NCBI GenBank assembly: GCA_012513915.1
Contig: JAAZBG010000153.1
Coordinates: 1-64,000, forward strand
Direction: 5' to 3'
Source: Fibrobacter sp.
Lineage (GTDB): Bacteria > Fibrobacterota > Chitinivibrionia > Chitinivibrionales > Chitinispirillaceae
Length of the DNA stretch: 64,000 nucleotides
Shown piece by piece: positions 9,290 through 49,709 of the stretch (the stretch's first letter is position 1; each line of letters opens with the position of its first letter). The translations under genes were made by a program, and so were the position numbers. Below the pieces are notes generated by a model. That model did not search any database. It saw only the letters and a list, made by a program, of their open reading frames with translations, and was not told the DNA's origin.

Positions 9290-12200
9290 TTATGCTGCCG
9301 CGAGCGCAGGATCATCAAACTTTACCGAAACAATTGTGGAAATACCTTTTTCCTGCTGTGTCACTCCATAAAGCAAATCCGCAGCTTCCATGGTGCGTTT
9401 ATTGTGAGTAATAACAATAAACTGAGTCTTTTCTGCAAATTTCTTGAGAACCTTGACAAACCGTCCAACATTCGCTTCATCAAGTGGTGCATCAAGTTCA
9501 TCAAGAATGCAATACGCTGATGGTCTTACGAGGTAAAGTGCAAACAGCAGCGATATTGCAGTAAGTGCACGCTCTCCTCCCGAAAGAAGCTGTACACCCC
9601 GCATTTTTTTCCCTGCTGGACGCACATTAATATGGATAGGTGCTTCGAGTGGATCAACATTTTCTTCGAGTGCCAGGTGGGCTTCACCACCTTCAAACAG
9701 TGTTGTGAACAGTTCGACGAAATTTTTCTGTACCTGTTCAAAAGTTTCAAGAAACTGGACTCTTGCTTCTTTATCAAGTTTTTTAATTGCCCGTTCAAGC
9801 TCATCAACAGCAGTCTGAAGATCATCACGCTGTTTTGTCAATTCCTGAAGACGTGCATTTTCAGTTTCGTAGTCCTCAAGCGCAGCCATATTAACCTGAC
9901 CCACGTGCTTGATACGTTCCTTTAACATCTGGATATTTTGTATAATCTCACTGTCTTCTTCTTCAATATGAGGAATCGGTTCCGGCGGAGAATCGAGATC
10001 AAGCTCGTATGCTTCCCAGATTCTCTCACGTATACGACGCTGCTCCTGTTCATCACGGGTATATTTGATTTCAAGGTCATGAATCTGATTTGATATTGTG
10101 TCAAGTTCAGACTGACCAGTGCGCGCTTCTTTTCTAACGTCTTCAATTTCAAGTAATTGTCCGTTATACTCTTCCCGCTCCCTGTCGCGAACAGCCTCAA
10201 GACCAGTTCGTACTTCCCGCTGTTTTTCAAGTTCATCTTTGAGTACAAGCATCTGGTTTTCAAGGTCAGCAATATCAGAAAACGCACGCTGTTTATCTTC
10301 AATTTTCCCCTGTTTACGATCACCTGCGGATTTAATATCGCGCGTCAGACGTTCAATGTCCTGCTTATCCTGGATAATACGATTTTTCAGCCCGTGTACA
10401 TCAAGTTCAATGTTTTTGAGGTGCTCAACAAGTGTTCTGCGCTGCTCGTCCATTGAACGCACAGCAGCTCTCGCTTCGTCAACCTGCGATTCAAGAAGAT
10501 CCTTACGGCTCTGACAGGTTGCAACCTCTGCTTCGTGAGTTCCAATCTGTTCTTCAAGCTGACCAATTTTTACGGTAATATTGTCAAGTTCAGGATTAAG
10601 CACCGAGATTCTGTTCATGATAGTATGCGTTTCATTCTCATAATGCTTGATATTCGTCTGCTGTTCCTGCTGCTGACGCTGACCTTTATTCAATTTTTCG
10701 TCAACCTCAATAAGTGCAACCTTTGCCTCATCGCGGTTAATAATGCATATATCCTTGTCACTAAGAATCTTTGTATGCTCTTTTTCCCATTTTTCAATGT
10801 CAAAAGTCAGTTTTTCAATCTGCTGCTTGCGCTGTAAAATACCTGCCTTCTCTTTTTTTGCATTTCCGGCAAAAACCGTTCCATCCTGACGACAAATAAC
10901 GCCATCACGGCCAGCAAACAAACAGGATGGATTCTTAAGCGACAACCCGATAGCACTGTCAGCATTATCAGTAATAATAATATGATTCAGAAAATGATCT
11001 GCGAGTGCATCACAGCCTGATGCTACCTTGACAAGAGATCGTGCAGATACTCCTTCCGCAACCGCCGGCGGCATTTTATTTTTCAATGATGCTACACGTT
11101 CAAGCGAAATCATGCATGCTTCACCAATACGCTCTGCGCTCAGCTGTCCAACCGCATTTCGTAAATCAACCTCAGTATTGAAAACCACTGTCTGTACCGA
11201 TGTTCCAAGAATCTTTTCTACAAGCCCTACCAAGTGTTCATCCGAAACGGAGATAAGATCTGCAACGATTCCCCTGACGCCCGAAACTTTACGAGTAAGA
11301 AGTTCCTTGACACCGGCATCATACCCTTCATAGGCAGCATCAAGCCCGCTTAGAAACCTGAGTTGTGATTTACTTGTGGAAACCTGTGCCTCAAGAAGCT
11401 TTTCTTTTTCGACAAGTTCCTGATACCGTTTATCCTCTTTTTCGATTCTGCCAAGAAGAACTTCTCTCGATTGATGTAGATTTCTGTTCTCGTTGTCAAC
11501 AGCATGAAGCTGCTGGCGACATACGATAATCGCCTCCTGATACTCTTCCAGACGCATCTCAAGATTCTGAACCTCACGCTGATCACGTTCTCTGCGTTCA
11601 AGTGCGTTGTTAAGATTGCTTTTTAAAGTACTGAGAACATTTCGTGTTTCACCAAGCTGATTGATAAGCTCGATCTGATCGCGCCCAAGTTGATCCGCTT
11701 TATCTCTCTGAAGCTGCATACTGCTGTCAAACTGCGCAAGTTCATCGGTTGCACCATTGACACGCTCAGTGCTCTTCTGAAGCTGTGTTTCGCGGTCGAT
11801 GATACTTTTCTCAATCTGTGTCCGTAAACGGCTGTTTTCCTCAATCTGCATCTCGATAGACTGCACATCCTGATCAAACCGACTGACATTCTGTTTCAGA
11901 TTATTCAAACGCTCTGTTGCAACACTTATATCCCGGTCGAGACGAATAATACGTTCGTTTGACTCACTTACATTCCGTGATGCAATCTCAAGTTCTTTTT
12001 CTTTCTCAAGAGCACCAAGCTGCATTCGTTCAATGCGTGATTCCGCAGTTGCTATCGACGCCTTAAGTGTCTCGCGGCGTGTTTCCAGCTCTGTCAACAT
12101 CGACTTACGCTCTTTCATCGCCACACCAAGCATCTGGTAGCGGCGGTTTTCGTAGCCGACTTCCTGCGCCTTGAGATCGTCGAAATATGTTTTGTAGCGT

Positions 12201-12838
12201 TTTGCTTTTTCAACATGACGCGCCAGCATCCTTACCTGACGATCCGCTTCCTGCACCTTGTCGTTAATACGCAGTAAGTCCTGACGGGTTTTCTCAAGCT
12301 GACGCTGACTCTCTTTCCTCCGCTGCTTATATTTTCCAATTCCAGCAGCTTCCTCAAAAAGAATCCGGCGTTCTTCGGCCTTATCACTTAAAATGGCATT
12401 GATCATTGAATTTTCGATTGTCGTGTAAGCACTGCTGCCGATACCGGTATCAAGAAACAGGTGGTGAATATCGCGAAGACGACATGGAACTTTATTAATC
12501 CTGTATTCACTTTCACCACTGCGATAGATTCTGCGTGTAATCGCAACTTCACTATATTCAACAGGCAAAATGCCCTTATTATTTTCAATTGTAAGCGTTA
12601 CTTCAGCCATATTAAGGGCTTGACGGTTTTGGGTACCACTAAAAATTACGTCAGCCATATTGGAACTTCTCAACATTGATGCCTTCTGTTCACCAAACAC
12701 CCAGCGGATTGCATCAACAACGTTACTCTTGCCACACCCGTTTGGACCGATAACCGCAGTCATCCCCTCACCAAAGCGCAGCTCTGTCTTATCTGCGAAC
12801 GATTTAAATCCGAAAATAGAGAGTTTGCGAAGAATCAT
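9290..12838 (-). CDS. smc: Chromosome segregation/condensation ATPase SMC
   Basis: A full-length SMC protein (about 1182 residues from the corrected start). The Walker A is GPNGCGKSN near residue 35. Long coiled coils flank a hinge around 510-650 (GYDAGVKELL, then GVRGIVADLI), and the C-terminal head has the signature LSGGERAL (~1087) and Walker B CILDELDAPLD. It dimerises at the hinge and, with ScpA/ScpB (not in this window), forms the bacterial condensin that organises newly replicated origins. The ORF-track start (12883) adds 15 residues. I prefer ATG 12838 because it follows AAAAGGA and gives the conserved M-x-L-x-x-L-x-x-x-GFKSF start. Confidence 0.97.
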   Translation of the reverse strand: MILRKLSIFGFKSFADKTELRFGEGMTAVIGPNGCGKSNVVDAIRWVFGEQKASMLRSSNMADVIFSGTQNRQALNMAEVTLTIENNKGILPVEYSEVAITRRIYRSGESEYRINKVPCRLRDIHHLFLDTGIGSSAYTTIENSMINAILSDKAEERRILFEEAAGIGKYKQRRKESQRQLEKTRQDLLRINDKVQEADRQVRMLARHVEKAKRYKTYFDDLKAQEVGYENRRYQMLGVAMKERKSMLTELETRRETLKASIATAESRIERMQLGALEKEKELEIASRNVSESNERIIRLDRDISVATERLNNLKQNVSRFDQDVQSIEMQIEENSRLRTQIEKSIIDRETQLQKSTERVNGATDELAQFDSSMQLQRDKADQLGRDQIELINQLGETRNVLSTLKSNLNNALERRERDQREVQNLEMRLEEYQEAIIVCRQQLHAVDNENRNLHQSREVLLGRIEKEDKRYQELVEKEKLLEAQVSTSKSQLRFLSGLDAAYEGYDAGVKELLTRKVSGVRGIVADLISVSDEHLVGLVEKILGTSVQTVVFNTEVDLRNAVGQLSAERIGEACMISLERVASLKNKMPPAVAEGVSARSLVKVASGCDALADHFLNHIIITDNADSAIGLSLKNPSCLFAGRDGVICRQDGTVFAGNAKKEKAGILQRKQQIEKLTFDIEKWEKEHTKILSDKDICIINRDEAKVALIEVDEKLNKGQRQQQEQQTNIKHYENETHTIMNRISVLNPELDNITVKIGQLEEQIGTHEAEVATCQSRKDLLESQVDEARAAVRSMDEQRRTLVEHLKNIELDVHGLKNRIIQDKQDIERLTRDIKSAGDRKQGKIEDKQRAFSDIADLENQMLVLKDELEKQREVRTGLEAVRDREREEYNGQLLEIEDVRKEARTGQSELDTISNQIHDLEIKYTRDEQEQRRIRERIWEAYELDLDSPPEPIPHIEEEDSEIIQNIQMLKERIKHVGQVNMAALEDYETENARLQELTKQRDDLQTAVDELERAIKKLDKEARVQFLETFEQVQKNFVELFTTLFEGGEAHLALEENVDPLEAPIHINVRPAGKKMRGVQLLSGGERALTAISLLFALYLVRPSAYCILDELDAPLDEANVGRFVKVLKKFAEKTQFIVITHNKRTMEAADLLYGVTQQEKGISTIVSVKFDDPALAAA

Positions 12839-13423
12839 TGTAATTCCTTTTAATTTAGCAGTTTGCGACACCCGGACATCCATCGGACACCATATATCGC
12901 CGTAATTACTCTTTCAAGATACTATATATTGGGTTTCGAGTCAAGATCCCGGGCAATCTTTTTTTGTAACATTTTTAATTTTCCCAAAAGAATCGAGACC
13001 TGTGATACGCAAGAGAAGTGTTGTAAAATTATATAATGGGATGATTCAGGTAAAGGGTAAAAATACCCATCCAATATATATGGATGGATATTTAACCCGT
13101 AGGGATGGCTCTCGTGGCCATCCGTTCTTTCGCGTATATATTCATGTACATATTTAATGAATCTGGCAGAAACCCCGGGCATGATATCGCCACCCAAAAC
13201 CAGATTTCCCATTTCAACATTTACAATCCATTGAACAGTAGCACATTAAACAGCGATTCACACACCTGATCGTAAAAATTGAGGGGGACAACAAACATAA
13301 CCAATTTCTCACTCCGGACATCAAAAATCGCACATTTGATTGAAAATGCCCCCTACCCCAAACCCGGCCGGAACTGTATAATTACACTGATATTCCATAC
13401 GTTTATTTGTTACAGGATAACAC
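12839..13423. other. 585-bp intergenic region with palindromic repeats
   Basis: No convincing gene lies here. The minus-strand ORF 12922-13212 is mostly a read-through of palindromes and is rejected. Two inverted repeats follow one another: 13061-13073/13081-13093 (13-bp arms, one mismatch, 7-nt loop) and 13103-13109/13117-13123 (7-bp arms, 7-nt loop). The region should also hold the divergent promoters for smc and for the 13424 gene. Confidence 0.6.
13061..13123. repeat. Compound palindromic intergenic element
   Basis: The left arm aaatacccatcca pairs with tggatggatattt across atatata. Immediately after, cgtag leads into ggatggc/gccatcc across tctcgtg. Both stems contain the same CCATCC/GGATGG word, so the two hairpins could also pair with each other. 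The gtaggg lead-in resembles the one at 58145. This looks like a REP/MITE-like dispersed element rather than a terminator. Confidence 0.55.
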
Positions 13424-16360
13424 ATGCGTTTTTTCCGGATACAATTACTTCTTTTTATGCTTAGTTTTACCCTGTTGGCATTTGAACCCGACTGGTTTAC
13501 CGACATGCGTGGAAATAATTCCGGGCATACTACATGTCAGTTTCTGACACTTCCACACTCTGCAGTAAGTCTTGCAACCGGTCTTGCAGCATCGGGCGGC
13601 AACGGGGATGCTACCGACATTCCCTTTTTTACCGCCAATACTGCACTTGCCGACCGATACCGTTTTTCACTGACACACCTTGAATGGTTCATGGGCTTAC
13701 GAAAAGAGTATCTTGGTGCATATTTTCCTGTGCTTGATGTTGGCACATTTGGATGTTACTCGCAACTATTTACACCCGGCGCGTTTCACTATGCAAGGAC
13801 CATTGACGAAACACCGTCAGACCCTGAAATTTACGAGTTTTCAATTGGTGTATCCTTTGCCCGTCAGATCATTCTTAACCGGCTCAGTGCCGGAGCCGGT
13901 ATCGCGTTTCTCGAAAGCCATCTTGACAAAAGCATTGGCCGCACAGCTATTGGGAATTTAGATATTTTATACACGCCGTTTAGTGTACTTTCAGCGCATC
14001 TGTATGCAGCCAATATTGGGAAATCAATCACCTATGACCTTACTCCCGAGAGCCTCCCAACTGAAGCAGGTTTATCGGTGCAGTATTATCCGCTGTCAAA
14101 ATCATTTATTGAAAAAACGCATCTCAATCTTAAAGTGTCAATTGGTGCCCGAAAAATTGCCGACAATCCCGTTATAAGTGGCCTGAGTGCTGATTTCAGT
14201 GTGATGGAAACATTCTCAGTACGTACAGGATACGAGTTCACATATGGTAATGACTTTTCAGCTGAAGGGCTTGGTGCCGGAGCATCATTACAATTAGGTA
14301 AATATGCGCTGGATGGCTCCTGGCGCTATGAATCGAAGGACCTCGGTTTTGTCTGGGCTGCAACGCTTCGCATGCAGCTTGAGGAAATTACACACAGGAC
14401 CGCAGAACAATACTATGCAATCGCCATTAAGCATTACAAAAAAAATCGTACGGTTCTCTGCGAATACTTTGCTAAAAAAGCGCTCGCAAAAGATCCGAAT
14501 CTCTGGAAAGCGTATGCCCTGCTCAGTAAACTCCGCTCAGATATGCTGCGTCAGGAGAACCTTGAAGTCGGCATTATTTACGCCGGAAATATGCGCGGTA
14601 ATTTTACTGTTCCAATTGAACGATCAATGCCCGGTGGTCTTGCCCGCATGACTTCTGCAATCAGGAGCCTTCAGTCGCAGTTCTCCACATCAGTGACAAT
14701 CAGTACCGGCAATGTCGGTTCTTCAATCAGTGATACAAACAGAATTGCAATCAGCGGTACCTATTTCAATCGTATCAGTCCTGATATTCTTGCTGCCGGT
14801 AAAAACGAAATACTGTCATATCCGGACAGACTTCTGCATTACATGAAATTAACAACCAATAAGAAATTCATTCTTAATAACGCAAACATTTCAAATGGTT
14901 CAGTACTTACAAAACAGATTATTGAAAAAAACAACTACCGTTTTTTTATTACATCAGTTGTCAACAAATCACTGATTACCGATTCTACTGCACAAAAGCA
15001 GCTTAAACCACTGCTTCCGTCAGAGTTGTTAAACAGTGATGCCCTGCGGTGTGATGTAAAGATTGTCATTGTTGATGACACCTGGGAAAATATTAAAAAA
15101 AATACTGCTATTTACAAAGGATTTGACATTCTTATCTGTTCAGACCTTGATCAGCCCTTTCACTCATCAATGAAACTTGATTCTCTTATTGTATTAAGTG
15201 CTGGATCTGATTGTATGTATGCCGGTAATCTGATTCTGCGTTTTGATAACAACCGGAAACTGCTTGGAACAGAGAACAGGCTCTATCCGCTTTCCGATGA
15301 TATCAAACAGGATTCTGTCGTCGCAGAGGCAATGAGAAAAATTTCCATGCCGCAGAGTAATTCTGATTCAACTTCACCGCAGGTCTTACTTAAAAACACC
15401 ACACCTGACGGAGTATTCACGTTTTTGTCTAATCGTAACGAAACAGAGCAGTTATTTCTAAAAATTCTTGCACAAAAAGCGGAATTCCCGATTTCTGCAA
15501 CAGATCAGACAGCGTACTGTCCAGTGATGTCATTTTCGACATCACGTATTGCGTACATTGTAAAAACTGATACGCGGAATCGCTTTGTTATCAGTTCGAT
15601 GGACGGAAGTACGATAGTGGCAAGCCCGGACAGCCTCAACGTCAGAAACATTGCTGTTTCACCTGATGGAAAATGGCTCTATATATCGGCGTATGTTGAC
15701 AAAAACGACTATGCCGACATACTCCGGTGCCGCTTTGATGGAGGTCCTTTTTACAGTGTGATTCAATCTGACAGTATCAATGAACATGATATCGCTATTG
15801 CACCAAAAGAAAATCTGATGGTGTACAATGCCAGTAAAAACAGATCATATCAACTCTATTTTGCTGATATGACTGGACAGAATCCGATACAGATTACTGA
15901 TGTCAACGCGGATCATTTTTCTCCTCAGTTCAGCCCTGACGGCAAACGGATTGCATATCTGTCAGACCGATCCAATTTCGGCGGAAAACTTGACTTATGG
16001 GTATTTGACAGAGACAAGGCTGCACATGAGCAAATTACCAGTTACTCAAATGTCAAAGAGTTCTGCTGGCTTGATGATGCAAAAACGCTCTGTTTTTCTT
16101 CCGGAGTCAATGTTTTCAGTCTCTATAAGGTTGATATCAACAGTTCCCGTTATTCACAACTTATTTTGCGTGATTCCACAGTAACCTTTAACGAACGTTC
16201 ACCGATATTTGTTAAAGATTCAACAACTGAAACAATTATTTATACAAGGGAATATCAGGATGGTACACGAAAAATTTATCAGGTTACAACAAACGGGACT
16301 GGTGAGAAACGGATTGTTAACAGTAAAGGAAATGACTGGCTGCCATCCTATCGTAAATAG
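13424..16360 (+). CDS. PorV-like barrel / degenerate metallophosphoesterase / TolB-like propeller fusion
   Basis: 978 residues with a signal peptide (1-20) and ATG supported by CAGGA. Residues ~35-330 look like the PorV/UPF0164 family of 14-strand outer-membrane barrels, with LAASGGNGDAT, a TANTALA helix, a GYEFTYGN strand and the final VWAATLRM strand. Residues ~335-380 are helical and TPR-like. Residues ~385-640 resemble the N-terminal domain of 5'-nucleotidase/UshA-type metallophosphoesterases (VGIIYAGNMRGNF, GGLARMTSAI, TISTGN). The usual metal-binding D and H residues (DxH, GD, GNH) are replaced, so catalysis is unlikely. Residues ~690-975 carry PD40/TolB-like propeller blades (SPDGKWLYISAY, FSPDGKRIAYLSD). 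PorV proteins act in type IX secretion. An outer-membrane scaffold or secretion accessory role is inferred. It overlaps the convergent smr-like gene by 13 bp. Confidence 0.75.
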   Translation: MRFFRIQLLLFMLSFTLLAFEPDWFTDMRGNNSGHTTCQFLTLPHSAVSLATGLAASGGNGDATDIPFFTANTALADRYRFSLTHLEWFMGLRKEYLGAYFPVLDVGTFGCYSQLFTPGAFHYARTIDETPSDPEIYEFSIGVSFARQIILNRLSAGAGIAFLESHLDKSIGRTAIGNLDILYTPFSVLSAHLYAANIGKSITYDLTPESLPTEAGLSVQYYPLSKSFIEKTHLNLKVSIGARKIADNPVISGLSADFSVMETFSVRTGYEFTYGNDFSAEGLGAGASLQLGKYALDGSWRYESKDLGFVWAATLRMQLEEITHRTAEQYYAIAIKHYKKNRTVLCEYFAKKALAKDPNLWKAYALLSKLRSDMLRQENLEVGIIYAGNMRGNFTVPIERSMPGGLARMTSAIRSLQSQFSTSVTISTGNVGSSISDTNRIAISGTYFNRISPDILAAGKNEILSYPDRLLHYMKLTTNKKFILNNANISNGSVLTKQIIEKNNYRFFITSVVNKSLITDSTAQKQLKPLLPSELLNSDALRCDVKIVIVDDTWENIKKNTAIYKGFDILICSDLDQPFHSSMKLDSLIVLSAGSDCMYAGNLILRFDNNRKLLGTENRLYPLSDDIKQDSVVAEAMRKISMPQSNSDSTSPQVLLKNTTPDGVFTFLSNRNETEQLFLKILAQKAEFPISATDQTAYCPVMSFSTSRIAYIVKTDTRNRFVISSMDGSTIVASPDSLNVRNIAVSPDGKWLYISAYVDKNDYADILRCRFDGGPFYSVIQSDSINEHDIAIAPKENLMVYNASKNRSYQLYFADMTGQNPIQITDVNADHFSPQFSPDGKRIAYLSDRSNFGGKLDLWVFDRDKAAHEQITSYSNVKEFCWLDDAKTLCFSSGVNVFSLYKVDINSSRYSQLILRDSTVTFNERSPIFVKDSTTETIIYTREYQDGTRKIYQVTTNGTGEKRIVNSKGNDWLPSYRK

Positions 16361-16782
16361 ACAAGTGTTGCACCATCACCGCCATCTTTACCAACAGCAG
16401 GCCGGTAGTCCCTAACATTCAGACACAGCTCATTCTCAAGCATGCTTTTCACCATATCCTTGAGCACCGGCCCTCCGGTAAGTACCGAGTGATACCCTAC
16501 CCCGTGAATGATCAGCAGTTCTTTTGCACCAGTCTCAACACATCGGTTTATTACAAACCGTAACCGTTGTGATGCTTCTTCACTTCGCATTCCGTGAAGA
16601 TCCAGCGTTTCTCTGGGCTGACCGCGACTATTGACAGAACGGGTAGACTGTTTCTTTTTTACAGGAGAAACACCAAGATCCTTATTGCGGGTACCGTATT
16701 TTTTTACAAATGCAAGTATTTCATCAGTGTGATCGATATCATCACTGTTCTCCGACTGGGAATCATGTCTGTTTTTTTTCAT
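16348..16782 (-). CDS. Smr domain protein
   Basis: 144 residues from the preferred start. A charged, probably disordered N-terminal half precedes a C-terminal Smr domain with LDLHGM, IIHGVG and a final GATLVYL strand; the LDxH and HGxG motifs are the conserved nuclease-associated elements. Stand-alone Smr proteins are endonucleases acting on branched DNA or on mRNA in stalled-ribosome rescue; which applies here cannot be told. The ORF-track start (16878) would run 58 bases into the upstream peptidase gene. ATG 16782, with AGGA upstream, avoids this and begins MKKNRHD. Confidence 0.85.
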   Translation of the reverse strand: MKKNRHDSQSENSDDIDHTDEILAFVKKYGTRNKDLGVSPVKKKQSTRSVNSRGQPRETLDLHGMRSEEASQRLRFVINRCVETGAKELLIIHGVGYHSVLTGGPVLKDMVKSMLENELCLNVRDYRPAVGKDGGDGATLVYLR

Positions 16783-16819
16783 CGCCGGAATCCTGACAGG
16801 TAGAGTCTCAATGCAAGTC

Positions 16820-17755
16820 TCAATCAATCGCTCCGGCGTTAACAAACAGTTTGTCATCAATCCAGACCGACGCGCCACTTACGCATGCATCAAGATGTAC
16901 CGGCATATCATCACCGCCGCCGATTGTAACATGCACCGATCCCCTGACTTTTTTATCCTCGAGAAGCGTACACCCGAACTCTGCAAGTTCGTTTGTTCCA
17001 ATGCCAAGTTCAATAAGCGAACGGGCGCCACTGCGGTTTTTTACAAATAGCTTCTCAAGTTCAAGCTGGCAATCATGACCTTCAATCTTTACGACATTAC
17101 CTTGACGTATCGTTATTACAAGTGGTTTATCCATCGGTCCATCAACAAGGGCAAATGACTGATTTACAATAACAGTACCATTTGCCGTCCCGCTCTTTGG
17201 ACGTAAAGACACTTCACCACCGGGCAGATTGCCGAATGTCCCGTTTGACATCAGACGGCCATCATCAGCCCTCGCGGGATTTCCATCACACTCAAATGTC
17301 AATTCGGCCGAATCACCGCTGATTAAACGCACCACTGATGGCGTCCCGACCCGTCCGGCGACTTTCCTTGTGTAAATTCCAAGTTTTCGCCAGTCTGCAA
17401 CCATTGTTCTGCAAAACGACTCATCAGTCACCCCGGGCAACGTGGCAATCCTGACAGGTTTTTCAGTTGCAAGTTTTTCGATAAGTTCCGGTGAAAATGC
17501 TTTTTGGGTTGCAATTGCAATACAGTCAAATTTGTCAAGTACCGGAACAATAATCTCCGGGATCATACTCCCATCGTATTTTCGTGACTGCACCATTACA
17601 AGCATGGTTTCCTTGCATTTGCCATCAGCCGAGTTATATAACGCACGCCCGATCTGCATGCAATATGCATCGCAAAGCACAAGAAACTGTTCATTACGAC
17701 GAATATTAAGACAATCATTTACAGCAATTTCTGCACAAGCCTGCACCGAGTTCAT
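16820..17755 (-). CDS. M29-like aminopeptidase family protein
   Basis: About 311 residues resembling the thermophilic metallo-aminopeptidase M29 family and its NicX-like relatives. Features are the PGGEV segment (~180), the IELGIGTNELAEF motif (~255), a GSVHVTIGGG stretch and VHLDAC near the C-terminus, which carry Glu/His/Asp residues in the positions used for metal binding in the family. It is shorter than classical M29 enzymes (about 400 residues), so activity on peptides is not certain. The ORF track starts at a TTG; ATG 17755 is preferred. The Smr gene follows 37 bp later on the same strand, so they likely share a transcript. Confidence 0.7.
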   Translation of the reverse strand: MNSVQACAEIAVNDCLNIRRNEQFLVLCDAYCMQIGRALYNSADGKCKETMLVMVQSRKYDGSMIPEIIVPVLDKFDCIAIATQKAFSPELIEKLATEKPVRIATLPGVTDESFCRTMVADWRKLGIYTRKVAGRVGTPSVVRLISGDSAELTFECDGNPARADDGRLMSNGTFGNLPGGEVSLRPKSGTANGTVIVNQSFALVDGPMDKPLVITIRQGNVVKIEGHDCQLELEKLFVKNRSGARSLIELGIGTNELAEFGCTLLEDKKVRGSVHVTIGGGDDMPVHLDACVSGASVWIDDKLFVNAGAID

Positions 17756-18114: not shown

Positions 18115-19068
18115 ATGAAAAAAGAACTACGTTCATTAGCGATGGTTCTGCCGTTATCGTTGTCCATGTTTACTTCATGTGATGTCTTATCTCCACTTGA
18201 TCCCGGTAATTCATCACCAACTGACAAAACGGAAACAGATATTGTTTCAGGACTCAAGGGGGCTCTGGTTCTTGGCGCTAAAACCGCAGCGTTTACATTA
18301 AGCGACACAAGCGGAAATCCAAATCAATTCAACGAGGTTACCGGATATTTTGCCAATGAGCTGACAAAGATAAATCTTCCAGCCGATGCCGTGAATGCAC
18401 TCAAGATGTTGGAGGGTCTTAACAACAGTGAAATCGGTAAAACGCTCCTTGATGCCGCAGGTATTGATATCTCGCAATATCGTGAATCGATGATCCTTGG
18501 ATTAAACCGGGGTGCAGAAATAGCCGCTGCTCTTTCTGTTGATGTCTTTGAAAAAGTAATACGTGAAATGGACATCCCATCAGCACAGGATATTCTGTTT
18601 GGTCAGGATTCAACTGCTGCAACAAGCTATTTACAAAGTACAACTAGTGATATCTTGACAAATGGATTTACACCTATTGTTGACAGTGTATTCAATGAGG
18701 TTATGGTAACTGCTTTCGGCAAACAGTTCACGGTTAATGATCTCTGGCGTGAATTTGCAGAAAATTACAATAACGTTGTCATAGAATATCAAAGACTTAC
18801 AACAGAAGCGGCATCAACAGATCCAATGGCAGTATTGGCACTGGAGGCTGCTATGTCTGACATTGGAATTACCTCTGTTGACCCACTCGACATCAACATT
18901 GCAAGCTTCGCAACAAGCGAGGCACTCGAAGGATTGTTTTATATGGTTGGTAAACAGGAAGTTAAAATCCGTCGTGATCCGGTTGCAGCATTATCAAACG
19001 CTATTAATTTTTATACCGATACACTCTACAATCTGATAATGACAATATTTTCAAAAACAACCGAGTGA
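18115..19068 (+). CDS. DUF4197-type lipoprotein, copy 1
   Basis: 317 residues. The signal peptide ends in FTSC (Cys ~22), a good lipobox, so the protein should be lipid-anchored in the periplasm or outer membrane. The remainder matches the DUF4197 pattern: GLKGALVLGAKTAA near the start, a helical body with ILGLNRGAEIAA, a TSYLQSTT segment and the C-terminal EGLFYMVGKQEVKIRRDP, where family members have a GLF-x-x-xxxEExxIR motif. The function of DUF4197 is unknown. The ribosome site is GGGGGG. The next gene is a close paralogue, and each copy is followed by the same type of hairpin. Confidence 0.85.
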   Translation: MKKELRSLAMVLPLSLSMFTSCDVLSPLDPGNSSPTDKTETDIVSGLKGALVLGAKTAAFTLSDTSGNPNQFNEVTGYFANELTKINLPADAVNALKMLEGLNNSEIGKTLLDAAGIDISQYRESMILGLNRGAEIAAALSVDVFEKVIREMDIPSAQDILFGQDSTAATSYLQSTTSDILTNGFTPIVDSVFNEVMVTAFGKQFTVNDLWREFAENYNNVVIEYQRLTTEAASTDPMAVLALEAAMSDIGITSVDPLDINIASFATSEALEGLFYMVGKQEVKIRRDPVAALSNAINFYTDTLYNLIMTIFSKTTE

Positions 19069-19093
19069 TAACTGCGCTACTACTATTTATTAA

Positions 19094-19125
19094 AACAGAG
19101 ACCTTTAAAGTGAAAGGTCTCTGTT
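19094..19125 (+). terminator. Hairpin terminator after DUF4197 copy 1
   Basis: AACAGAGACCTTT and AAAGGTCTCTGTT form a perfect 13-bp stem with a 6-nt loop, 25 bp after the stop codon. No T-run follows. A nearly identical stem follows the paralogue. Confidence 0.7.
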
Positions 19126-19322
19126 ACTGAGTTCTCAGATGCCTATGTCAAAAGGCTCACATGTAATTGCCAAAGTTTGCGTATCCCTGTCACAATAGTT
19201 TAACTGACCGTACCATTTATGTATATTATGTCAGCAGCAGTATAAAAATTTATGAGTCTGCCTGTTCGACTGAATTTCGATTCTATAATTCAGTGTTTGT
19301 ACATTTTAAAATGGAAGGTGTT

Positions 19323-20285
19323 ATGAAAAAAAGCAAACTATTTTTGGCACTGATATTGCCATTATCGACACTAATGCTTGCATCATGTGATTATGTATCT
19401 CAGTTTGAAGATCTAAATCCGTTATCAACAGAACTTACAGATTCAGAAATTATTGACGGCCTGAAGGAAGCGCTGGTGCTTGGATCTCAAACAGCCGCAA
19501 AAACATTAAGTGATACAAACGTGGGAACAAATTCATTCAATGAAGTTACCGGGTACCTTGCCAATGATCTGATCAGGATCAATCTCCCCCCTGATGCAGA
19601 AAAAGCAATTGCAACGATGGAACTTCTCAATTCCAATACTGTTGTTAAAACGCTGCTGACTGTTGCAGACATTGATTTTTCAAAATATCGTGACGCAATG
19701 ATCCTTGGACTAAACCGGGGAGCCGAAAAAGCAGCAGATCTTTCTGTTGATGTTTTTAAAACGGCAATACTTGAAATGACCTTTACATCTGCCCGTGATA
19801 TCCTGCTTAGCGGGGATTCAACCGCTGCAACAAAGTATTTAACTACAACAACAAGTGGTGTTTTGACAAGCGGCTTTACTCCTATTGTTGACAACACATT
19901 TAGTGCTGTCAAGGTAACTGCTTTCAGCAGAGAATTCACAGTTAAGGGTTTGTGGAGTGATTTTTCTGTAAACTACAATAAAGTTGCCGATGTCTATCAG
20001 ACTCTTAATACTAATGCTGCATCATCGAATTTTTTGACATCACAGGCAGCAAAAGCAAGTCTAAAATTAATTTCCGATGCAGGTGTTGAAGCTATTGACC
20101 CGCTCAACACCGACATTGTAAATTTCGCAACAGGTAAAGCACTTGACGGGTTGTTTTATATGGTTGGCAAACAGGAACTCAAAATTCGCCGTGATCCTAT
20201 GGCAGCGTTGGCAGCTGTGGGTGATTTAGTAACCCAGACTGTTAGCGATCTGATCAAGAAAGTATTTAAAAAAACAACGACCTGA
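19323..20285 (+). CDS. DUF4197-type lipoprotein, copy 2
   Basis: 320 residues from ATG 19323, which follows GGAAGG. The ORF-track start at 19167 is too early because it precedes the signal peptide. The lipobox is LASC (Cys ~21). It shares with the upstream gene GLKEALVLGSQTAAKTLSDT, ILGLNRGAEKAADLSVDVF, GFTPIVDN and GLFYMVGKQELKIRRDP, so the pair arose by tandem duplication. Copy 2 carries a short insertion before the C-terminal motif. Function is unknown; periplasmic or outer-membrane anchoring is inferred. Confidence 0.85.
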   Translation: MKKSKLFLALILPLSTLMLASCDYVSQFEDLNPLSTELTDSEIIDGLKEALVLGSQTAAKTLSDTNVGTNSFNEVTGYLANDLIRINLPPDAEKAIATMELLNSNTVVKTLLTVADIDFSKYRDAMILGLNRGAEKAADLSVDVFKTAILEMTFTSARDILLSGDSTAATKYLTTTTSGVLTSGFTPIVDNTFSAVKVTAFSREFTVKGLWSDFSVNYNKVADVYQTLNTNAASSNFLTSQAAKASLKLISDAGVEAIDPLNTDIVNFATGKALDGLFYMVGKQELKIRRDPMAALAAVGDLVTQTVSDLIKKVFKKTTT

Positions 20286-44955: not shown

Positions 44956-45125
44956 CAGGGCGACTATTCATTCCTGAAAAATCAATTATTTTTATTGAAG
45001 TTGCTGGTCCTGAAGACTATGAACAGGATTAAAATTTCATAGTGAAGTAAAAGTATTGTTGGCCAACTGATACATTTACATTGATAAATGAGTGTTATGA
45101 AAATCACCTGAAAAAGGATATTTTT

Positions 45126-48100
45126 ATGTTTAAGAGAAAAATAATAGGAGCTCTATCGGCTATTGTACTTATGAGTGCCGGTATTTCAGGAGCTGATAAA
45201 TTTTCGGTAAAGATGCCGTACAAAGAGGTTACTGTAGACAATGTCAATGGAAAGGCTGTGTTTGACGGAACCACACTTTACGGACAAGCCGGACAGCCAA
45301 ATCTTCCATTCTATTCTGTAACATTTCTTTTGCCTTCAGATGCTGATATAGACAGGGTTTCTGTTGTACTTGAGAATGAAAAGGAGGTCGAGCTTGTCGA
45401 TCAATACGATGTGGACGCAGTTCTTCCACCTGTATCAGGAACAAAAACGCTTTGGCCAAAAGACCGAAGAATAGTCAATGGTAAAGATACTGACGTATAT
45501 GAAAAAGATGCGTTTTTCCCTGCTTCGAATGCCGGGAAATTATCGTTCAGTAAAATGGGCAACCATAATCTCGTGACAGTTCCGTTTTACCCGGTACGCT
45601 ACAATCCGGTTACTAAAAAGCTTAAAATGATTACCGGGGGGGATCTTTCTGTACTGATAGCCTCAGGATCTTCTTCGAAGGCAAGAACAAACAGTATGAG
45701 TTTTGCAGATCACCGTCAGGATGCATTACTTAAAAAACTGGCTGTTAATTATGAACAAATAGCGGCTGGCTACAACCAGAACAGATCATCAAAAGCGTAT
45801 AGGTCAAATGCAGCCCTTGCAGAAGCATCAACAGGTGATGTTTATGTTATTCTCACAGTAAAGGATATTATCAATAAATCTAAAGAGCTGCAGAATTTCA
45901 TACGCTCAAAGGAAAATCGCGGTTTTAATGTAAAGGTTATTGATGAAGACAAATGGGGCGGAAATACTGGTGATGCCGCGGCTGAAAATATGCGCACCTG
46001 GCTTAAGGGAAATTATCTTAAAGAAAGTATTAATTATGTTCTGCTTATTGGTAATCCCAACCCTGATACAGGTACTGTTCCTATGAAAATGGCTTGTACA
46101 CAACTTGACACCACCGATACAATCTTTTGTCCAACAGATTGTTACTATTCTGAACTCAGTGGAAATTGGGATCTGGATGGAGACGGACTGTTTGGTGAAT
46201 ATAATGGTGACTATGGTCCCGGTGGAGTTGATAAGGTCAACGAATTGTCGTTGGCAAGAATCCCGTATTATGATAACATCGAAGACCTTGACAAAATACT
46301 TGCCAAGATAATTACCTATGAAAACAGTGATGGTACATCGAGTTCCTGGCGTTCAAAGATACTGCTGCCTATGGAACCTTCTGATTACAGCACTCCAGGG
46401 TGTGATCTTGGAGAAGCGATCGTAAATGATGTTACAGACCCTGCGGGGTGGAAAAAAACCCGGATATATGAAAAAAACTACGGTGTCAATCCGGAAATAG
46501 TACCCACATCCACTGCTACAGTACTTCACAGCTGGAAGACTGATCCGGCAGGGCTTGTTATATGGTGGACCCACGGGTGGTATGAGTCCGCATCTGATAT
46601 AATGACCAGCAGATATGCTCAATATCTTGATGACCAATATCCGGCATTTACATTCCAGGTAAGCTGTTTGAACGCCCATCCCGAGACTCCGGATAATCTT
46701 TGTTATTCCATTCTCAAAAATGGCGGAATTTCTACAATTGGCGCAACAAGGGAATCATGGTACATGCCGGGGCAGGCAAATTTTGAGGCTTCAAATTCAA
46801 GAATATCATATGAATTTGCCAGGTCTTTTGTTAAAGATGGATTTAATGTTGGATCGGCTTTGACATCTGCAAAGAGCAACGTAAATATCGAGTCTGGGTG
46901 GCAGTTGTCGAACTGGATGATGTTCTGTATTTATGGAGACCCGGCTTTAAGCGTTTATACATCCACGGAAAACACATTACTGCTTGGTAATATACCTGAT
47001 CAAAAAAAATATGCAGGCGAAAAATTTGAAGATGTTGATCTTAATAGTTATGTTTTCAGTTCTGCATATGCCTCAAACGAGATTAATTGGAGTGTCAACG
47101 GCTATAGAGAATTGAGAGCGTCTATAGTAAACGGTGTCCTGTCGGTGATCACTCCGAACACCTTCTGGTCCGGTTCGGAAACACTAACCATTGAAGCAAG
47201 AACACCCGATGGTAAAACGCAAACGCATACGTTTAAATATCGTATGGTTGGAAGCGACATGGTTTATCTAAGTGATTTAGAACCGAGTTTCGCAACCGCA
47301 GGATGGTCATCTGTCAAAAAAGATATGAGCGTAGGTGGCAATCCGATTCGTATTGCCTCAGAGGAGTATAAAAAAGGTTTAGGGACTCATGCAAACTCGG
47401 AAATAGTATACAATATTAATGGTCAGTACGATATTTTTTCGGTTACTATCGGGGCAGATGATGAGACAGACGGTTCGGTTATTTTTGAAGTTCTCGGTGA
47501 TAATCAGAGGTTATTTAAAAGCGGTACTACAATGCAGAAGGGCTTTGCTGAGAAATGTAATATTGTAGTCAGGGGAGTACACGAACTGAGGCTGCTTGTC
47601 ACTGATGCATATAATGGCATTAATAGTGATCATGCCGACTGGGCGGATGCAAGACTAATCAAAAATGCAGGTATTAAAACAGTAAATGCGACTATTCATG
47701 AATATAGTTTTAATGGTTGCTGGCAGGACGCCTGGTCTTCAACTATATCTTACAAAAAGGGGGATCAGTGTACCTTTGCAGGAAATTCCTGGAGAGCACA
47801 TGAAGATAATTTTAATAACATTCCGACTGACACACAATCTTCCTGGTATGACCTTGGGCCATGTCCATCTTCCCAGACTCAATATTTCGGTTCTTTATCC
47901 CAATATGGAATAATTGCAGTTGAGTCGGGAGATCAATTGACATTGTCCCCCAATCCAGACTATAAATTTGAATTGACACAGCTGCTGATAGATGGACAAT
48001 CGGGAACATGCAACGTCAATGGAACCATTGATCTTGGTACAATTACTGATAACCGTACACTTGAGGTAACATTTGACAGAGAACAGAAAGGTTATCTTAG

Positions 48101-49709
48101 ATTGTCAAAAAAAGGTCTCAAGTACAATTATGAAGATTGTGTACTCGGTCAGGATAATTACGTACTCTTTGGAAAACCGGCATATGTATATGCTCTTCCG
48201 GTTGAAGGTTACCGCTTTGTCCGCTGGGAAAAAACCTCTGGTAATGCCAGAATAGAGCATCCTGAGAGTGAATATACTTGTGTATTTATGGATGGCGGTG
48301 CTAATATTGAGGCTGTTTACGAAGTCGATGACAATCCAGTGTACGAACTCTCCGTTGAACCAACGATATTCAAAACGGGGGCATCAGTTACGGTTACAGC
48401 ACCATCTTCAGCCAACGGAAAAGAAGTAACATTTACGCTATATAGAGTTTCCAAAAATGCAACAGTAGCGGGTGATTTTGTGGAAGAATTTACAAAAACA
48501 CTGAGAGCCGGCACTCAGACATTTACTTGTCCTTCATGGGATTACCTTCCTGTCGCTGGATATTATAATGTTGAGATGACGCATTCAGGAACACTTCTGG
48601 CAAAGGAATATTTCGAGAAATTATCGAATGTTTTTGAACTGAATTTGACAGCGACCTCTGCTCAGGTGACGGATAAAGTAACCTTATCTTTTGATAATCC
48701 AAGCCCATATCTGGTTGGAAAGACTGCAGACTTCAAATTGAGCTGTGGTAATTCAAGCTTTAAAATTTCAAAACAGATAGTAGAAGGCGTAAACATTTTT
48801 ACAGAGACACTCAGTGACAGATATTATCCTTTTGGAAAGTATGAAGTGACCATGTATATCGAAAATACTCAGCGTGGTACAGCATTTTTCGAAAAAATTT
48901 CAAAACAGTACAACCTCAACGTATCTGTAAAAAACATTGACTTTGGTACAATCGATGCAGGTACGACAAAAAAGAATATGGTGACATTAACAAATGATGG
49001 AAACAGCCCGGCTCTGATTTCAGATATTTTCATGAAGGAACCTTTTAGCGTTGAACAGAAAACGCCGATAACTGTTCCTGCCGGAGAATCAATTACTCTT
49101 ACAGTTCTGTATAAACCGCTTTCTGCTGGTAATTATAACGCTACCATGACGATAGTGAATGCACCTGATGCTCAGGTACAGACTCTTACGATTGGCCTTT
49201 CAGGGAGTGCTGAGAACGAGGTGATCGCAACCGGGTCATCATTTGAAATTATCATGATTCCCGATAGTGATCCAACCGGCAATTCAATTCAACCTCAATT
49301 TAAAATTAAAAATACCGGAAAGGATGATGTCGATCTGTCAAACGTTATTGTTGAATATTATACATGTGATCCTTTGGTTTCAGAAAAATCACTTAACGGA
49401 TTGATCTATTACTGCAGTGTTCCAAACGCTGAAACAGGTATACAATTCACCCGATTAAATCAGACCTTCGGAAATAATGATCTAAAGGCTGATACAAGAA
49501 TTGAATTCTATTTTAAGGGTGGATCGTTGGGTTCCGGCAAAAGTTTCGAATTAAAGGCAGGAATTAACGAGATCAACTGGGGACACAATTTCATGGAAAA
49601 CGATGACTGGTCCCATCAGGTGCAGACAGGAAACGTAGCACCAAATGTAGTGATTCGTGATAGGATATCAAATAAGATACTGTATGGTACGTTACCAGAT
49701 GGACTATGA
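45126..49709 (+). CDS. Gingipain-family (C25) protease with multiple carbohydrate-binding modules
   Basis: 1527 residues from ATG 45126 (AAAAGGA upstream; the ORF-track start is 15 codons early). Order: signal peptide; C25 propeptide (~25-190); C25 catalytic domain (~235-630), with catalytic His in WWTHGW (~480) and Cys in VSCLNAH (~512); NPCBM-like module (~710-846; GLGTHANSEIVY, VTIGADDETDG); CBM5/12-like chitin-binding module (~858-915; WSSTISYKKGDQCTFAGNSW); two beta-repeat segments (~920-1070); two Ig-like segments (~1070-1260); an ASH/DUF1573-like segment (~1262-1365; IDFGTIDAGTTKKNMVTLTN); and a CBM3-like module (~1370-1505; NSIQPQFKIKNTGKDDVDLS). No typical type IX sorting tail is seen at the end. 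It probably cuts proteins embedded in chitin- or cellulose-rich material. A bidirectional hairpin follows. Confidence 0.88.
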   Translation: MFKRKIIGALSAIVLMSAGISGADKFSVKMPYKEVTVDNVNGKAVFDGTTLYGQAGQPNLPFYSVTFLLPSDADIDRVSVVLENEKEVELVDQYDVDAVLPPVSGTKTLWPKDRRIVNGKDTDVYEKDAFFPASNAGKLSFSKMGNHNLVTVPFYPVRYNPVTKKLKMITGGDLSVLIASGSSSKARTNSMSFADHRQDALLKKLAVNYEQIAAGYNQNRSSKAYRSNAALAEASTGDVYVILTVKDIINKSKELQNFIRSKENRGFNVKVIDEDKWGGNTGDAAAENMRTWLKGNYLKESINYVLLIGNPNPDTGTVPMKMACTQLDTTDTIFCPTDCYYSELSGNWDLDGDGLFGEYNGDYGPGGVDKVNELSLARIPYYDNIEDLDKILAKIITYENSDGTSSSWRSKILLPMEPSDYSTPGCDLGEAIVNDVTDPAGWKKTRIYEKNYGVNPEIVPTSTATVLHSWKTDPAGLVIWWTHGWYESASDIMTSRYAQYLDDQYPAFTFQVSCLNAHPETPDNLCYSILKNGGISTIGATRESWYMPGQANFEASNSRISYEFARSFVKDGFNVGSALTSAKSNVNIESGWQLSNWMMFCIYGDPALSVYTSTENTLLLGNIPDQKKYAGEKFEDVDLNSYVFSSAYASNEINWSVNGYRELRASIVNGVLSVITPNTFWSGSETLTIEARTPDGKTQTHTFKYRMVGSDMVYLSDLEPSFATAGWSSVKKDMSVGGNPIRIASEEYKKGLGTHANSEIVYNINGQYDIFSVTIGADDETDGSVIFEVLGDNQRLFKSGTTMQKGFAEKCNIVVRGVHELRLLVTDAYNGINSDHADWADARLIKNAGIKTVNATIHEYSFNGCWQDAWSSTISYKKGDQCTFAGNSWRAHEDNFNNIPTDTQSSWYDLGPCPSSQTQYFGSLSQYGIIAVESGDQLTLSPNPDYKFELTQLLIDGQSGTCNVNGTIDLGTITDNRTLEVTFDREQKGYLRLSKKGLKYNYEDCVLGQDNYVLFGKPAYVYALPVEGYRFVRWEKTSGNARIEHPESEYTCVFMDGGANIEAVYEVDDNPVYELSVEPTIFKTGASVTVTAPSSANGKEVTFTLYRVSKNATVAGDFVEEFTKTLRAGTQTFTCPSWDYLPVAGYYNVEMTHSGTLLAKEYFEKLSNVFELNLTATSAQVTDKVTLSFDNPSPYLVGKTADFKLSCGNSSFKISKQIVEGVNIFTETLSDRYYPFGKYEVTMYIENTQRGTAFFEKISKQYNLNVSVKNIDFGTIDAGTTKKNMVTLTNDGNSPALISDIFMKEPFSVEQKTPITVPAGESITLTVLYKPLSAGNYNATMTIVNAPDAQVQTLTIGLSGSAENEVIATGSSFEIIMIPDSDPTGNSIQPQFKIKNTGKDDVDLSNVIVEYYTCDPLVSEKSLNGLIYYCSVPNAETGIQFTRLNQTFGNNDLKADTRIEFYFKGGSLGSGKSFELKAGINEINWGHNFMENDDWSHQVQTGNVAPNVVIRDRISNKILYGTLPDGL

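Follow-up and report, generated by a model that had tools for sequence, protein, structure and literature searches.

A PorV/PorQ-family barrel fused to a predicted inactive 5'-nucleotidase-type domain and a TolB-like propeller in Fibrobacterota

The locus and its surroundings

The window, a 64,000-nucleotide stretch at the start of contig JAAZBG010000153.1 from a Fibrobacter sp. assembly, contains on its forward strand an ATG-started open reading frame (13424-16360) that codes for 978 amino acids plus the stop and has an AGGA motif 6 nt 5' of the start codon. As the upstream gene, which codes for an SMC-like protein (9290-12883), runs the opposite way and the downstream gene (16348-16878) is convergent, with an overlap of 13 bases, the gene stands alone. 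Its neighbors are housekeeping-like and vary between the 31 loci compared. Those that recur are a small convergent gene, whose product looks by eye like an Smr domain, a gene for ~315 aa, one that resembles, also by eye, a tRNA-guanine transglycosylase, and an upstream radical-SAM gene. None of the 31 neighborhoods has type IX secretion genes beside the fusion gene, which leaves no operon or neighbor link, and we rejected the neighborhood as a guide to function for this reason. A frameshift or chimera artifact was rejected as well, because many genomes hold intact frames of ~980 aa; the gene is real and conserved.

The genomes of families f10 and f11 have a DUF2225 gene just before the fusion gene (L061:636-1604, L062, and L064). 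Elsewhere in the window, two DUF4197 genes lie in tandem (18115-20285), and positions 45081-49709 code for a 1542-aa protein with a gingipain-type propeptide and NPCBM, choice-of-anchor D, and cellulose-binding domains, in which no TIGR04183 tail was found.

Domain architecture

The AlphaFold2 model of the 978-aa protein, built with 31 aligned relatives, has a mean pLDDT of 87.2 and a pTM of 0.49, meaning that the individual domains are good and that their mutual placement is not fixed by the model. The chain begins with a signal peptide in which we saw no lipobox cysteine (approximately aa 1-19, 13424-13480; helix 2-19 in the model) and a plug-like region (aa 20-77, 13481-13654), where the alignments to PorV and FadL begin (aa 29-39). 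These are followed by a 14-strand barrel (aa 78-321, 13655-14386) and by three helices (residues 327-377 of the model) that form a TPR-like hairpin (aa 325-378, 14396-14557), the most conserved stretch of the protein. An alpha/beta domain of the 5'-nucleotidase type comes next (aa 380-641, 14561-15346; residues 381-641 in the model), separated by a disordered and poorly conserved linker (aa 642-660, 15347-15403; pLDDT of <50 at 642-655), the least conserved stretch, from an all-beta region (664-955 in the model) that corresponds to a PD40 propeller similar to those of TolB and S9 peptidases (aa 661-972, 15404-16339). All of these features are on the forward strand.

Profiles built from the relatives agree with these assignments independently of the models, with the barrel leading to PorV (5.1e-10), the middle domain to 5'-nucleotidases (1.4e-21), and the propeller to TolB (3e-25). 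The sequence-only reading of this DNA had proposed a three-domain protein with a PorV-like barrel, a phosphoesterase that has lost its metal residues, and a TolB-like propeller. That anatomy is confirmed by the model, the profiles, and the structure matches, down to the 14 strands of the barrel and a middle region that is a phosphoesterase fold and not an unrelated one. Two features can be added: the TPR-like hairpin that lies between the barrel and the phosphoesterase-type domain, and the conservation of the architecture across much of the phylum Fibrobacterota. In the closest pair of relatives (L006/L010), the sole pair with unsaturated dS, the dN/dS values are 0.16 for the barrel, 0.09 for the TPR-like hairpin, 0.25 for the phosphoesterase domain, and 0.19 for the propeller.

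The barrel

The whole protein matches the NCBIfam family that comprises PorV and PorQ (NF033709) at aa 36-305 with an E value of 1.6e-20. The barrel of the window protein scores 78.5 bits, just under the curated 90-bit cut-off, relatives of the same architecture exceed it (e.g., 112.7, 107.1, and 95.9 bits), and the family model is matched by the barrels of 29/29 relatives (best, 3.7e-35). The FadL-type 14-strand barrel with an N-terminal plug that is a feature of this family is present in the model, and its best PDB structure match is PorV from the type IX translocon (8gl6_F; Z score of 31.7 over 287 residues, 4.1 Å), with a second PorV structure close behind (6h3i_F; Z score of 31.2). The earlier barrel assignment therefore stands at the level of family architecture. 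Its more specific naming as PorV does not, as the window barrel reaches only 20.5 bits on the PorV model (NF033710) against a cut-off of 250. Moreover, in the alignment to Flavobacterium johnsoniae PorV, the PorV residues jump from 238 to 323 while the profile advances from 204 to 233, so that a PorV stretch of ~55 residues is missing from the barrel. The Pfam family suggested in that reading, PF03687, gave no match. On the PorQ model (NF033711) the window barrel also remains under the cut-off (34.4 bits versus 220), and this model matches the barrels of 24 of the 29 relatives (best, 2.9e-24), versus 17 of 29 for the PorV model (best, 3.8e-11). The barrel belongs to the PorV/PorQ family by its architecture, and in several relatives by score as well; it is nearer to PorQ, and neither PorV nor PorQ proper. 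The same genome gave 18 PorV-family matches over more than a dozen genes, among them one PorV-like barrel (390 aa), one PorQ-like barrel (328 aa), and further composite barrels, which makes the window protein one paralogue and not the PorV of the cell.

The affinity of the relatives for the PorQ model, together with the presence of PorU-type sortases, could be explained by a PorQ-like anchor of the surface attachment complex, in which the barrel would hold a PorU/PorZ-type protein on the cell surface and the tail would clamp this protein to periplasmic components. We consider this unlikely, given the distance of the window barrel from the PorQ cut-off and the existence in the genome of a separate and better PorQ-like barrel (L084; E value of 1.2e-23). 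Equally improbable in our estimation is a channel of the FadL type that would carry small hydrophobic ligands or others, with a tail that would receive or sense the ligand and a function unrelated to secretion. The FadL and TodX structures do match the barrel (Z scores of 27 to 29), and small-molecule binding is within reach of both the 5'-nucleotidase fold and the propeller, but the sequence matches are to PorV and PorQ, and PorV is the only PDB sequence found with the barrel profile (5.1e-10). As FadL shares the barrel fold, the fold by itself is no proof of a type IX function.

The propeller

The C-terminal region contains Pfam PD40 repeats (E value of 4.5e-14) and is annotated by NCBIfam as a TolB-like propeller at aa 802-971. 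TolB was also ranked first by Foldseek and was the family found with the propeller profile (3e-25), in line with what had been read from the sequence, while the PDB structure matches are to S9 peptidase propellers (8wt1; Z score of 29.2). The score on the TolB model (TIGR02800) is 64.5 bits, with 343 needed. Pfam found neither a TolB N-terminal domain nor an OmpA_C domain in the window protein, which ends past the propeller, where PorE carries its OmpA_C, and the same genome has another TolB-like gene, of 415 aa. The low TolB score, the missing domains, and this second gene argue against a general envelope scaffold that would connect the outer membrane to Tol-Pal or peptidoglycan through the propeller; the TolB-like character of the propeller speaks for such a role, which we nevertheless regard as very improbable.

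The phosphoesterase-type domain

The Pfam scan of single middle domains, including that of the window protein, gave no meaningful family match, as these domains have diverged too far to be detected from one sequence at a time. The profile of the middle domain of 31 relatives, on the other hand, leads to 5'-nucleotidases (E value of 1.4e-21), and the domain matches the 5'-nucleotidase 3ivd within the full model (Z score of 27.8). Folded alone (pLDDT of 93.2, pTM of 0.92), it matches 3ivd_A over the whole domain (Z score of 27.5, 260 residues, 2.6 Å). The domain has the calcineurin-like/5'-nucleotidase fold, as had been suspected, and a viral fold library returned ordinary phosphoesterases only.

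We transferred UshA numbering through the profile alignment to 3ivd and tabulated the residues over the 31 relatives at the metal and catalytic positions, which we take to be D41, H43, D84, N116, H117, H217, H252, and 254. Histidine is found in 0/31 relatives at H43, at the catalytic H117, and at H252. Asparagine replaces D41 in 30/31 relatives and D84 in 25/31 (Asp in 3/31), N116 is kept in only 2/31, and position 254 has Gln in 4/31 and His in 1/31. The ligand His at H217 is kept in 18/31 relatives but not in the window protein, whose residues at the eight positions are, in order, N389, R391, N430, K460, N461, D551, D574, and D576. The two-metal ligand set and the catalytic His of an active 5'-nucleotidase are thus lost in essentially all of the 31 relatives, which bears out the replaced metal residues noticed earlier. 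The second domain of 5'-nucleotidases, which binds the substrate, is absent too, with the propeller in its place. These two losses make the loss of activity about as secure as a sequence allows, and the domain is almost certainly devoid of phosphoesterase activity. One could still argue for phosphoesterase activity at an unusual metal site from the His at the H217 position in 18/31 relatives and the Asp at the D84 position in 3/31. This is scarcely credible, as nearly all relatives lack the remaining ligands and the catalytic His, and as the eight positions of the window protein hold Asn (three times), Asp (three times), Arg, and Lys.

The dead domain does not appear to be decaying. The Asn residues that have taken over at 389 and 430 are nearly invariant among relatives, which suggests a new constraint, and both belong to the best-conserved positions of the entire protein, together with Y386, G404, G405, R408, G429, G594, and G601. 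No stop codons intrude, and the dN/dS of 0.09 to 0.25 in all domains of the L006/L010 pair indicates that the domain is maintained.

Outside the fusion itself, the middle domain is most closely related to proteins of ~770 aa (L054:1170-3467, L055, L056, and L057) with a 5'-nucleotidase-like start, a CDC motif, and altered metal sites; Pfam gave no match on the single one that was scanned.

Distribution in Fibrobacterota

Of the 40 genomes of the order that were searched, 33 have matches. As read from the table of matches, the fusion of barrel and phosphoesterase domain is present in 30/40, some of them split by contig ends. Two genomes of one genus (G023 and G024) have a barrel-less version of 660 aa that starts at approximately aa 350 and has a signal-like N terminus (L066:4188-6167 and L067:4535-6517). 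The fusion is absent in 8/40 genomes (G002, G003, G025 to G029, and G031), and the match in G026 is a TolB-like propeller only. Outside the order and within the same phylum, barrel and middle domain are found in one frame in ten genomes (G043, G146, G153 to G159, and G166), and the domain order is identical in all seven of the ten that were inspected. The phylum search found no fusion in the large genus g29, with propeller matches in other proteins only; this genus is presumably Fibrobacter itself, so that the genus Fibrobacter seems to lack the fusion.

A single pattern scan of GTDB genomes returned 13 relatives, some full and some partial, every one of which bears a Fibrobacterota name. These names (Chitinispirillaceae, Chitinivibrionales, and "Fibrobacter sp." MAGs) place the window on the Chitinispirillia side of the phylum. 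Another phylum gave one match, to the propeller only. No relative of the fusion protein was found among viral contigs.

Type IX secretion in the host genomes

SprA is present in 167/167 genomes of the phylum, 159 of them over the cut-off, and is a 2091-aa frame in this genome (contig C203). PorU-type sortases occur in 40/40 genomes of the order (26 over the cut-off; 517 bits in this genome), as do TIGR04183 cargo tails, of which we counted 82 in this genome. Together, these components indicate that the host has a type IX translocon and its cargo, and the co-occurrence with SprA and PorU that had been proposed as a check is found. SprE/PorW gave below-cut-off matches in 40/40 genomes, which are only suggestive because unrelated control genomes match too, and the search for GldM, a marker of the type IX motor, with no match in the 40 genomes, was uninformative because its controls were equally silent.

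The fusion gene does not accompany SprA everywhere, as it is missing from 8/40 SprA-bearing genomes of the order and from the SprA-bearing genus g29. The suggestion of a type IX-like route thus fares unevenly: the machinery co-occurs with the fusion protein, while gene linkage and a strict association with SprA are lacking. These absences and the fold shared with FadL keep the type IX setting just short of an even chance, and we regard participation of the fusion protein in type IX secretion as a plausible proposal that falls slightly on the doubtful side.

Topology and proposed role

A barrel that follows a Sec signal and has an even strand count keeps its two termini on the periplasmic side, as PorV and FadL do. 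The barrel-less versions of G023 and G024 have hydrophobic N termini with no lipobox Cys, and with such a start their phosphoesterase-propeller tail should be periplasmic. Between the two locations initially considered for the last two domains, periplasm or surface, the even strand number and this exported version favor the periplasm, and a barrel with a periplasmic tail is highly probable. Conservation is higher in the seven outer loops, among them aa 89-92, 118-135, 200-213, and 246-250, than in the six inner turns (mean JSD, 0.557 versus 0.462; Mann-Whitney P = 0.003), in a test that presupposes the predicted topology and treats residues as independent. Conservation of outer loops is unusual for outer membrane proteins and is weakly suggestive of a partner outside the cell or in the translocon.

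From these data we can draw a tentative model. The fusion protein would be exported by Sec, and its barrel would sit in the outer membrane with its two termini facing the periplasm, where the chain would run on as the TPR hairpin, the 5'-nucleotidase fold, and the TolB-like propeller. The nucleotidase fold would neither hold two metals nor cleave, and the tail domains would serve as protein-binding surfaces. The conserved outward-facing loops of the barrel would engage a partner at the surface or in the translocon, as PorV and PorQ do, and the tail would tether this partner to something periplasmic. The likeliest partner is a component of type IX secretion, be it SprA, a cargo tail, or a protein of the attachment complex. 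In the solved structure of the extended translocon, PorV spans the lateral gate of SprA. Three of its outer loops enter the pore, where they hold on to the tail of the cargo, while the base of PorV on the periplasmic side is in contact with SkpA in a dish formed with SprE (PMC10994853). A scaffold or adaptor role for the fusion protein is reasonably probable, while the complete picture, an outer-membrane-anchored, nonenzymatic periplasmic scaffold with loops that bind a type IX partner, we judge to be evenly balanced.

Other composite barrels and significance

The top PorV-family scorers in the order are proteins of ~800 aa (L039:1423-3840 [G000:C63], L037, L041, and L043) in which a propeller of Reg_prop repeats is inserted within a PorV-like barrel. 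They have a weak match to PorZ (E value of 2e-9), resemble a PorV-PorZ-like fusion, and are adjoined by a secreted-metalloprotease-like gene in 4/4 loci. Other proteins, several per genome, consist of a PorV/PorQ-like barrel followed by a TPR tail of at least ~350 residues (L089, L092, L094, and L096; G000 contigs C126, C146, C205, and C76), and two have the reverse order, an N-terminal soluble domain and then a PorV-like barrel (L097 and L098; G000 contigs C124 and C270). The barrel with a periplasmic tail is a recurring theme in these genomes.

To our knowledge, what is known of type IX secretion comes almost entirely from Bacteroidota. In Fibrobacterota, a phylum of importance for the degradation of cellulose and chitin, SprA is found throughout, and the construction of the outer membrane machinery has been little studied in the literature searched. 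It is conceivable, if rather unlikely, that type IX secretion in this phylum uses barrels with covalent periplasmic scaffolds and a retired nucleotidase as a binding platform. If so, the fusion protein and its sister TPR-tailed barrels would be carriers or anchors in which the tail replaces the separate periplasmic proteins of Bacteroidota, such as SkpA, SprE, and PorE. The conserved single chain of barrel, pseudoenzyme, and propeller offers a handle on such envelope-tethered carriers or anchors and is a clear case of a pseudonucleotidase fixed across much of a phylum.

Comparison with known systems

The fusion of a PorV/PorQ-family barrel to a dead nucleotidase and a propeller is undescribed in the open papers searched, and these papers gave no description of an outer membrane pseudonucleotidase either. 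PorV (6h3i_F and 8gl6_F), the top structural match, shares the 14-strand FadL-type barrel with its N-terminal plug. However, PorV is a stand-alone barrel, whereas the window protein continues for ~650 residues after the last strand, scores far under the equivalog cut-off, and lacks the ~55 PorV residues at profile positions 204-233. PorQ, a barrel of the type IX attachment complex, provides the closest specific model for the barrels of most relatives, although the barrel of the window is under its cut-off, and we know of no PorQ with any such C-terminal tail. The likeness to the N-terminal domain of the 5'-nucleotidases UshA and CD73 extends to the whole fold (Z score of 27.5) and to a conserved frame of GG-x-x-R and GxxE, and the differences are the missing metal ligands, catalytic His, and C-terminal substrate-binding domain. 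With TolB, the protein shares a PD40 propeller with SPDGK motifs, without the TolB N-terminal domain and far under the TolB cut-off. Last, PorE/PG1058, a periplasmic type IX lipoprotein that is thought to be a scaffold, has the same succession of TPR and TolB-like PD40 propeller (PMC5053529). PorE also carries a CRD and an OmpA_C domain and has no barrel, whereas the window protein combines that succession with a barrel and a dead nucleotidase fold.
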